NCBI GenBank assembly: GCA_017464245.1
Contig: JAFUDV010000050.1
Span: 1-44,838 of the forward strand
Length of the DNA stretch: 44,838 nt
DNA from: Bacteroidales bacterium
Lineage (GTDB): Bacteria; Bacteroidota; Bacteroidia; Bacteroidales; UBA932
Direction: 5' to 3'
The notes beneath the pieces were generated by a model. It saw nothing but the letters and a program-made list of their open reading frames with translations. It had not been told where the DNA came from and did not search any database. This document shows, in pieces, positions 35,728 through 38,651 of the stretch (its first letter is position 1; every line of letters begins with the position of its first letter). A program made the position numbers and the translations under genes.

Positions 35728-37902
<2,175 letters not shown>

Positions 37903-37930
37903 ATGCTCCAGTTCGTTTTAAGGGTTATTC

Positions 37931-37968
37931 AAACAAAAGGGGACCGGCCCCCCCGAAGGACCGGTCCC
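37931..37968 (-). terminator. candidate attenuator hairpin in the glnN leader
   Basis: On the minus strand, GGGACCGG (37968-37961) pairs with CCGGTCCC (37947-37940) in eight perfect GC-rich pairs. A further TCC/GGG pair can enclose a TTCG loop. The stem is followed by C and then TTTTGTTT (37938-37931). It lies 28 nt before the glnN ATG and 33 nt after the leader-ORF stop. Confidence 0.75.
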
Positions 37969-38001
37969 TATCCTGAAATGCTGTTCCCGTGCCTGTCCGG
38001 T

Positions 38002-38073
38002 CTATCGGCATACAGAAACCCGCAGGGCCTGCTGGCCCTGGACGCGCTGCTGCTGGAAACCACGGAATTGCAT
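38002..38073 (-). CDS. glutamine-rich leader peptide of glnN (23 codons)
   Basis: This short ORF was found by reading the glnN leader. It starts with ATG at 38073, codes for 23 residues and stops with TAG at 38002-38004. It begins MQFRGFQQQRV and ends RVSVCR. Seven residues are Gln (2, 7, 8, 9, 12, 14, 15), encoded by one CAA and six CAG. The gene downstream makes glutamine. The ATG lies 22 nt after a promoter-like box. Codons 12-17 form a perfect seven-pair hairpin in RNA (CAGGGCC/GGCCCTG, 38040-38023). After the stop, GACCGG (38002-37997) can pair with CCGGTC in the left arm of the attenuator hairpin. All of this fits ribosome-mediated attenuation sensing Gln-tRNA. No homologue is known to me; expression is unproven. 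Confidence 0.72.
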   Translation of the reverse strand: MQFRGFQQQRVQGQQALRVSVCR

Positions 38074-38095
38074 CGTTCTTGTCGTTTTCTGGTTC

Positions 38096-38126
38096 GCAAG
38101 ATACGAAGAAAATCGTTTTCGGCCAA
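38096..38126 (-). promoter_or_regulatory. candidate glnN promoter (TTG, 20 nt, TATCTTGC)
   Basis: On the minus strand a TTG (38126-38124) precedes TATCTTGC (38103-38096) by 20 nt. The -7 box differs from TAnnTTTG in its last two bases. The predicted start lies about 17 nt before the leader-peptide ATG. Bases further upstream (38127-38190) hold nothing recognisable on this strand. Confidence 0.5.
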
Positions 38127-38267: not shown

Positions 38268-38341
38268 GGCCCCTTAGCTCAGTTGGTCAGAGCAGCGGAC
38301 TCATAATCCGTGGGTCGTGGGTTCAAGTCCCCCAGGGGCCA
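38268..38341 (+). tRNA. tRNA-Ile (CAU anticodon, lysidine-modified type)
   Basis: This is a 74-nt cloverleaf without encoded CCA. The acceptor GGCCCCT/AGGGGCC is perfect, the D stem is GCTC/GAGC, the anticodon stem GCGGA/TCCGT, and the anticodon CAT lies at 38302-38304. The CAT anticodon could mean Met. However, the GGCCCCTTAGCTCAGT start and AGGGGCC end match the known minor tRNA-Ile2, whose C34 is changed to lysidine to read AUA. The T stem GTGGG/CCCCC has one T-C mismatch. Confidence 0.85.
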
Positions 38342-38345
38342 CGAG

Positions 38346-38402: not shown

Positions 38403-38431
38403 GATGCCCCAGCGGCTCCCGACCTATTCCT

Positions 38432-38596
38432 TGGCGCAGGTACAACCGGATGTTGGCGCAGGTGTGTTTTTTGGGTGTCAACCTGCGCCGCGAATCTGGC
38501 GCATACGCTCTCCACTGGCGCAGGTGCCCATGTCGAAATCACACCTGCGCCAATAACTTGCTACACCTGCGCCAGAATCCGGTTACACCTGCGCCG
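38432..38596. repeat. cluster of seven GGCGCAGGT repeats in both orientations
   Basis: Full copies of GGCGCAGGT start at 38433, 38455 and 38517 (plus) and occupy 38481-38489, 38543-38551, 38565-38573 and 38587-38595 (minus). A partial copy is at 38498. Copies in the same direction are spaced 22 bp. Two plus/minus pairs form identical-size 35-bp dyads (38455-38489, 38517-38551). No coding capacity or promoter was seen in the region from 38403 to 38651. Confidence 0.85.
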
Positions 38597-38651
38597 ACAG
38601 CCATTTGGAGGGACGGAGGAAAACGCGCGCCTGCATGGTTGCCAAGATGCT

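Follow-up and report, generated by a model that had tools for sequence, protein, structure and literature searches.

Results

The region upstream of glnN

The window, that is, the whole stretch of 44,838 nucleotides that was analysed, belongs to contig C33 of a draft genome (G000; 2.37 Mb, 97 contigs, 84.7% complete) whose nearest named relatives are Bacteroidales assemblies from rumen and gut. On its reverse strand lies glnN, encoding a type III glutamine synthetase, preceded by the elements collected in Table 1. The original prediction had described here a promoter-like sequence, a short ORF with seven Gln codons of which three are consecutive, an RNA hairpin formed by some of these codons, a GACCGG motif over the stop codon that could pair with a terminator arm, and a GC-rich terminator with a U-rich tail just before glnN. 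All of these elements were recovered from the sequence and its translation, and position 37931 in the tail is separated from the glnN ATG (37902) by 28 nt.

Table 1. Predicted elements of the glnN leader and the gene that follows it (positions in the window)
Element	Position	Strand	Characteristics
Promoter-like stretch	38097..38126	-	TTG at 38126-38124 (by eye) and Bacteroidetes-type -7 box TATCTTG at 38103-38097
Leader ORF	38002..38073	-	23 codons, MQFRGFQQQRVQGQQALRVSVCR; 7 Gln codons (6 CAG, 1 CAA), codons 7-9 consecutive
Hairpin P0	38023..38040	-	codons 12-17 (CAGGGCC-AGCA-GGCCCTG); 7 bp, -13.4 kcal/mol
Presenting hairpin HP1	37985..38017	-	TTCTGT..GCC / GGCACGGGA; putative antiterminator in loop
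Putative antiterminator GACCGG	37997..38002	-	first G is the last base of the TAG stop codon
Intrinsic terminator stem-loop	37940..37968	-	13 bp, -24.2 kcal/mol; predicted from sequence pattern
U-rich tail	37930..37939	-	CTTTTGTTTG, directly after the terminator stem
glnN, type III glutamine synthetase (putatively controlled gene)	35728..37902	-	Pfam GSIII_N (2.2e-73), Gln-synt_C-ter, Gln-synt_C

The sequence leads us to expect a transcription start near position 38090. The -7 consensus of B. fragilis is TAnnTTTG (PMC7366714). A TAnnTTG box is shared by 22 of 47 leaders at a comparable distance, as against 8.1 expected from shuffles; a scan for E. coli-type promoters gave no match. Hairpin P0 is a possible pause hairpin for RNA polymerase. 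The leader RNA from 38095 to 37903, the folding of which had been proposed as a check on the original prediction, forms a more stable fold than any of 200 shuffles (z -2.82).

The GACCGG motif can pair with CCGGTC (37964-37959) in the terminator's 5' arm, and the spacing between the motif and the terminator is 28 nt. Taken in the window alone, the presence of such a complement is unremarkable (shuffle p 0.18). The resulting 6-bp duplex (-9.5 kcal/mol) is far weaker than the terminator (-24.2 kcal/mol), and the motif is partly paired in the computed fold; any antitermination brought about by this duplex would therefore have to be kinetic.

Recurrence of the leader upstream of glnN

Inspection by eye of 80 named loci already showed that the leader is present in relatives. 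For example, the leader peptides of L011 (MAHALYNQQQNQQSQSQQVWSVSVCV), L006 (MAYTFYNQQQNQQSQGNQAGVVSACV) and L052 (MTRLHQNIVQQQSQQQNLNNVQVRLSVFSHRTSPVMII) are each followed by CCAGCC or CCAGTC and by a terminator whose 5' arm contains GGCTGG. For the systematic survey, 236 loci yielded 229 glnN starts and 183 distinct upstream regions, on which we ran a detector that ignores peptides and requires only a terminator and a complement of at least 6 bp to its 5' arm. The pair was found in 69 of the 183 regions, and in 52 of these 69 (52/183) the arm is suitably placed and of the family type, a few of them being doubtful (L091 is a likely false positive, and L242 and L291 are weaker). The antiterminator and arm come in several versions among glnN leaders, including GACCGG/CCGGTC, CCGGTC/GGCCGG and CCAGCC/GGCTGG. 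On single loci the complement often lies within chance, with p 0.05 reached by only 20 of 66; the case therefore rests on recurrence.

A covariance model (R1) was also tried as a survey tool and rejected: at E <=0.01 it matched in 272 of 393 genomes of the order, apparently mostly on terminator-like sequences. As this model is unspecific and has no means of representing the pairing between loop and arm, loci were collected by way of the GlnN protein instead. Thirty loci from an order-wide GSIII_N search, read by script, contained no combination of CCAGYC and GRCTGG upstream (0/30), and seven of them list a short Gln/Asn-containing ORF without this combination; these loci, and 30 others from the R1 search, lie outside the 183 regions. 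The exact hairpin core TGYGTATAAN{0,4}CCAGYC has 16 matches in 151 genomes of the genus to which G544, the genome of L011, belongs. Fifteen of these are located just before glnN and the 16th lies inside a coding frame, so that in this genus the core is close to exclusive to glnN; the reversed control pattern has 10 matches in the same 151 genomes.

The leader is not present in all close relatives. It is absent from L003, L004 and L195-L197, whose glnN is 88-93% identical, and it may have been deleted there. In three (L229, L230 and L232) of the six Prevotella-type loci, the leader, located between asnB and glnN, lacks an 11-codon stretch with an Asn run and retains the hairpin and terminator; the stretch is present in L031, L225 and L227. 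The leader device appears, from these comparisons, to have been gained and lost across relatives. L003 and L004 have a promoter-like box immediately before glnN, and in L004 a tRNA gene adjoins glnN, as in the window.

In four other loci (L033, L037, L043 and L047), a very short ORF before glnN (MVIQPIISDKEG in L033, by eye) enters a strong terminator (AAAGAGGGCTAGTCC...). This ORF contains no run of Gln codons in any of the four, and the arrangement is possibly another type of attenuator.

Pairing of the putative antiterminator and its predicted display in a hairpin loop

Two alignments were prepared: A1, with 22 of 24 prepared leaders (L026 and L080 excluded), and A2, with 26 of 29 leaders (L016, L212 and L213 excluded, L026 added by eye). 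In A1, the helix between the loop and the terminator arm is paired in 97.6% of cells, a value that falls to 0.9-55% when the partner is slid. The complementarity first noticed in the window is thus conserved among relatives. Two-sided changes occur in two of the six pairs of this helix and in seven of the eight pairs of the HP1 stem, of which 68.5% of cells are paired. Together, HP1 and the loop helix contain 41 two-sided cells as against 20.5 in shuffles, a number reached by 0 of 500 shuffles. By stricter counts, which suffer less from relatedness, the number of pairs with a two-sided change in both helices is reached by 111 of 500 shuffles and the number of pair types by 30 of 500; for the loop helix alone, each of these counts is reached by 182 of 500. 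The covariation in these alignments is, in other words, clear by some counts and non-significant by the strictest.

The signal for HP1 is weaker in the Gln-type set. Hairpin P0 shows two-sided changes in six of nine pairs, with 28 cells as against 14.3 in shuffles (28 reached by 0/500), and by the stricter counts its number of pairs is reached by 82 of 500 shuffles and its pair types by 205 of 500. Among relatives, six of the 11 predicted pairs of the terminator show two-sided changes. For A1, RNAalifold predicted the terminator and no other structure; for A2 it predicted neither P0 nor any other structure.

To assess the display of the antiterminator, 15 nt on each side were folded with the antiterminator held unpaired, in 30 glnN leaders, taken one or more per cluster, and in seven of 13 asnB leaders (see below). 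An enclosing hairpin was obtained in 37 of 37 leaders, a constraint of this kind itself favouring enclosure, so that the energies and not the counts carry the evidence: the mean is -7.9 kcal/mol as against -3.0 kcal/mol for shuffled flanks (Wilcoxon 1.5e-11). On single leaders, p 0.05 was reached by 24 of 37, and the window has p 0.06. According to these modelled energies, the antiterminator is displayed in a hairpin loop and not on a free strand. Judged by sequence, its formation would be exclusive with that of the terminator, their pairing partners being overlapping.

Composition and reading frame of the leader ORF

An ORF chosen by position under a blind rule was obtained in all but five of the 52 family-type candidates (L034, L080, L091, L212 and L245). 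Its presence in 47 loci is not evidence in itself, short ORFs being common; its composition is. In the 47 loci (30 clusters), these ORFs contain 17.5% Gln and 12.8% Asn, as against 4.5% and 3.5% in other short ORFs of the same regions and 3.2% and 3.0% in two proteins of the window. The figure is lowered by L040 and L052, in which the blind rule picks an ORF in the wrong frame. The Gln enrichment anticipated for relatives by the original prediction thus exists, and in most relatives Asn codons accompany the Gln codons; the window's own leader has zero Asn codons.

Codon choice adds little. The preference for CAG is not special to the leaders, since glnN has it likewise (CAG:CAA 697:102). Asn codons are used in a ratio AAT:AAC of 140:57 in leaders versus 186:1278 in glnN (45/47 loci), a reversal that carries no weight because the codons of glnN may be expression-biased.

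The alignment of regions upstream of glnN, put forward with the original prediction, revealed a Gln-rich ORF and a terminator conserved in Bacteroidales, but the proposed comparison of synonymous and nonsynonymous changes was uninformative: substitutions in Gln-type ORFs are mostly nonsynonymous (787 vs 107). Residues other than Gln and Asn are not conserved, as expected if the codons alone matter. Indels in multiples of three, counted in pairs that are not independent, amount to 48 of 89 in the ORF versus 28 of 178 in the spacer for the Gln type, and to 20 of 32 versus 12 of 36 for Salinivirgaceae; in the Prevotella type threes are not favoured (3/12 vs 3/18).

These data bear on an alternative explanation, namely that the hairpin and terminator form a switch that binds a ligand or a protein, i.e. 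a riboswitch or the target of an RNA-binding regulator, with an ORF that is accidental or translated in passing. The hairpin and loop are indeed kept where the reading frame runs through (L016, L018, L040 and L052), both hairpin and terminator persist in L034, where no Gln/Asn ORF was seen, and there is no visible purifying selection on the peptide sequence. Such a switch does not account for the enrichment of Gln and Asn upstream of the hairpin, about 4-fold over other short ORFs and found with glnN and asnB alike, nor for the frame favoured by indels in Gln-type ORFs. Moreover, a search with the covariance models of Rfam cis-elements (the glutamine riboswitch, T-box and others) gave no match to such an element on the leader: at gathering thresholds the window yields only a tRNA, and in the six relatives nothing at E <=1 falls on the span from ORF to terminator. 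We therefore regard a ligand- or protein-binding switch as unlikely, and favour an ORF that is read by the ribosome for its Gln and Asn codons.

The place of the stop codon is relevant to this reading. In 24 Gln-type leaders, the stop codon ends between 2 nt inside and 6 nt before the antiterminator; in the 23 other leaders the reading frame enters or crosses it. The distance from the last Gln or Asn codon to the antiterminator, measured in 29 Gln-type leaders, is 22-30 nt; in Salinivirgaceae it is 12-15 nt. Given the usual footprint of a ribosome, the Gln-type spacing implies that the hairpin would be free while the ribosome waits at a Gln codon. By distance alone, the antiterminator would be masked by a ribosome on the stop codon and left exposed by one on the control codons, an argument that is weaker in Salinivirgaceae.

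The C-terminus VSVCR or VSACV looks conserved in many Gln-type leaders, which might suggest, as the original prediction did for RVSVCR, a signal in the nascent chain. In such a case, a Gln/Asn-rich peptide or its VSxCV end would arrest the ribosome in response to free glutamine, as TnaC does. The similarity is explained by the fact that these codons are the 5' arm of HP1, which makes the idea of a nascent-chain signal dispensable, and leaders that share the anatomy have quite different C-termini in L016, L018, L040, L052, Salinivirgaceae and upstream of asnB. Arrest by the nascent chain is, in our view, highly improbable, and the Gln and Asn codons remain the preferred signal.

Genes downstream of the leader, and leaders of asnB

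In G544, the leader heads a cluster of genes on the same strand consisting of glnN, gltB, gltD, pyrG, a purF-like gene, PII, amtB and asnB. The matches for purF and PII score under the curated threshold, and Pfam gave nothing for the purF-like protein at 1e-10. This gene set, at L375 (377-15150, minus strand), lies on one strand over ~14.8 kb and places four further glutamine-using enzymes beside glutamine synthetase, PII and the ammonium transporter. For G698 (L206), similarity of protein starts gives the order glnN, gltB, gltD, PII, amtB, an unknown gene and asnB. Ten genomes carry asnB on the contig and strand of glnN, roughly 7-12 kb farther downstream, and in G550 (L021), whose leader has 8 Asn and 4 Gln codons, asnB starts 201 nt after glnN. 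Neither G000 nor G553, to which L002 belongs, gave a match to asnB at E <=1e-50.

The opposite order also occurs: in 36 of the 183 regions, asnB ends no more than 600 nt before glnN. Extending 20 regions further upstream identified asnB in 18 of them; 13 of the 18, including the near-duplicates L315/L329 and L323/L324, have an Asn/Gln-rich leader of their own with a terminator and a matching antiterminator. The asnB leader of L313, for instance, is MAKGLVFVTNNNQNNNQNQNNNQVLMITSFGQRES with GGCCAG/CTGGTC. Other pairs of asnB leaders are GACCAG/CTGGTC, GCCGGTC/GACCGGT and ACCAGTC/GGCTGGT; as these differ in their letters from the glnN pairs, the principle has been kept while the letters have changed. 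In L315/L329 the leader is located ~250-350 nt upstream of asnB with a second terminator between them. The loose terminator rule also yields a pair in five asnB regions that have no leader ORF, so that in these regions the pair alone does not discriminate. In a wider search for asnB, 37 of 42 loci were read and four of the 37 have such a leader, all of them already among the 13. Where asnB lies at the end of a cluster headed by glnN, no leader of its own was found in the loci read.

Among Gln-type leaders, the median number of Asn codons is 4.5 with asnB (n=20) versus 2 without (n=13; Mann-Whitney p 0.0004). Independent contrasts on the glnN tree (31 of 33 tips, L263 and L291 being too short; the genomes are drafts, and L026 was added by eye) give p 0.20 as found, and p 0.0016 if L006, whose near-identical sister L204 has asnB, is counted with asnB. 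It is suggestive, on these sequence counts, that leaders have more Asn codons where asnB is present.

Discussion

Based on these results, we think it probable that transcription into glnN is governed by ribosome-mediated attenuation, with charged tRNA-Gln as the signal and, in relatives with Asn codons in the leader, tRNA-Asn as well. RNA polymerase would start near 38090 and a ribosome would follow on the leader ORF. With ample Gln-tRNA, the ribosome would run on to the stop codon and sit over GACCGG and its hairpin; the terminator would then form, ending transcription before glnN. In a shortage of Gln-tRNA, it would halt at Gln codons 7-15, no closer than 26 nt to the antiterminator. The stop-codon hairpin could then form, and its loop could pair with the emerging 5' arm of the terminator, thereby delaying the terminator so that glnN is transcribed. 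The sequences show the anatomy of the leader, its recurrence, the enrichment in Gln and Asn, the kept complementarity and the position of the stop codon, while translation of the ORF, stalling, kinetic antitermination and the direction of control are inferred.

The known classical attenuators belong to the Trp, His, Phe, Leu, Ile and Thr pathways, and in the trp and his systems the hairpin in the control codons pauses RNA polymerase there. The glnN leader shares with the trp and his attenuators a short ORF with codons for the product, a predicted hairpin in the control codons, a putative antiterminator exclusive with the terminator and a stop codon adjoining the antiterminator. It differs from them in that its control codons are Gln and Asn, its genes serve nitrogen assimilation and its host belongs to the Bacteroidales. 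Furthermore, where the trp and his leaders use a long strand 2:3 stem, antitermination here would fall to a loop of 6-8 nt, carried on a small hairpin and pairing with the terminator arm. The glutamine attenuation of the trp/his type that was originally predicted is thus supported by comparison in its principle, and requires correction in that Asn codons are also present and the antiterminator probably sits in a hairpin loop instead of a free strand. We consider the leader a variant of ribosome-mediated attenuation, the principle of which has been described (PMC1183508), and not a new kind of system. As far as the sequences indicate, what is new is the input from Asn, the asnB leaders, the antiterminator presented by a loop and a nitrogen-assimilation cluster placed under a leader.

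Several described elements resemble this leader in part. Small ORFs in long 5'-UTRs of Bacteroides thetaiotaomicron are suspected attenuation leader peptides in the same order (PMC7366714), but the main text of that paper contains neither 'glutamine' nor 'glnA'. Like the glnN leader, the glutamine riboswitch (PMC8632094) represents RNA control linked to glutamine, and one title cited there concerns glutamine synthetase in cyanobacteria; it differs in that Rfam has no match on the glnN leader, where codons and not a ligand pocket would carry the signal. The His leader peptides of hisS paralogs (PMC2965389) are attenuators outside the Proteobacteria, likewise described by comparative terminator analysis, but they use His codons and occur in bacilli, and the words Bacteroid-, glutamine and asparagine do not occur in the main text of the paper. 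No Gln/Asn leader peptide for glutamine synthetase or asparagine synthase was found among the matches listed from the open-licence literature.

Published physiology is available for Prevotella ruminicola 23. Depending on ammonium supply, expression of its glnN-2, gltBD, amtB, glnK and asnB genes differs 26- to 69-fold, and according to the introduction of that paper their regulation 'remained to be characterized' (PMC5552732). On the one hand, section 8 reports much higher expression of these genes in the comparison of ammonium with peptides, which fits the sensing of amide-tRNA charging. On the other hand, the Figure 4 legend and section 13 have the genes higher in excess ammonium, whereas one sentence of section 7 states the opposite, i.e. 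induction by limitation. If this strain has such a leader, higher expression in excess than in limiting ammonium would have no simple fit to the prediction from attenuation. This mismatch, as well as the close relatives that manage without a leader, would suit a constitutive partial terminator accompanied by a non-regulatory small ORF, the true nitrogen control being exerted at the promoter or through PII. That arrangement leaves no reason for a complementarity kept through changed letters, or for the match between the Gln/Asn codons and the product, and we judge it very unlikely.

If the attenuator is real, a Gln/Asn attenuator over ammonium assimilation would be a new input for the attenuation mechanism, and gut and rumen Bacteroidales would gain a nitrogen sensor. 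A wider view, which we put forward tentatively and at somewhat short of even chances, is that amide nitrogen is controlled throughout the Bacteroidales by attenuators that read charged tRNA-Gln and tRNA-Asn jointly. Their mix of codons would be matched to the operon that follows (Gln before glnN on its own, Gln and Asn before glnN...asnB, and mainly Asn before asnB-glnN), and whole nitrogen-assimilation operons would be switched via the loop-presented antiterminator without a dedicated protein or ligand sensor. The relatives offer natural variants in this respect: Gln only, Gln and Asn, Asn type and leaderless.

Other features near the locus

Further upstream in the window, positions 38431-38606 contain REP-like direct repeats of ACACCTGCGCC with a 22-nt spacing and inverted copies GGCGCAGGT, and a tRNA-Met (cat) gene (38268-38342) is located near this repeat cluster. 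In the Salinivirgaceae locus L056, a match to the Acido-Lenti-1 RNA (RF01687) above the gathering score lies at positions 878-923, upstream of the glnN leader.
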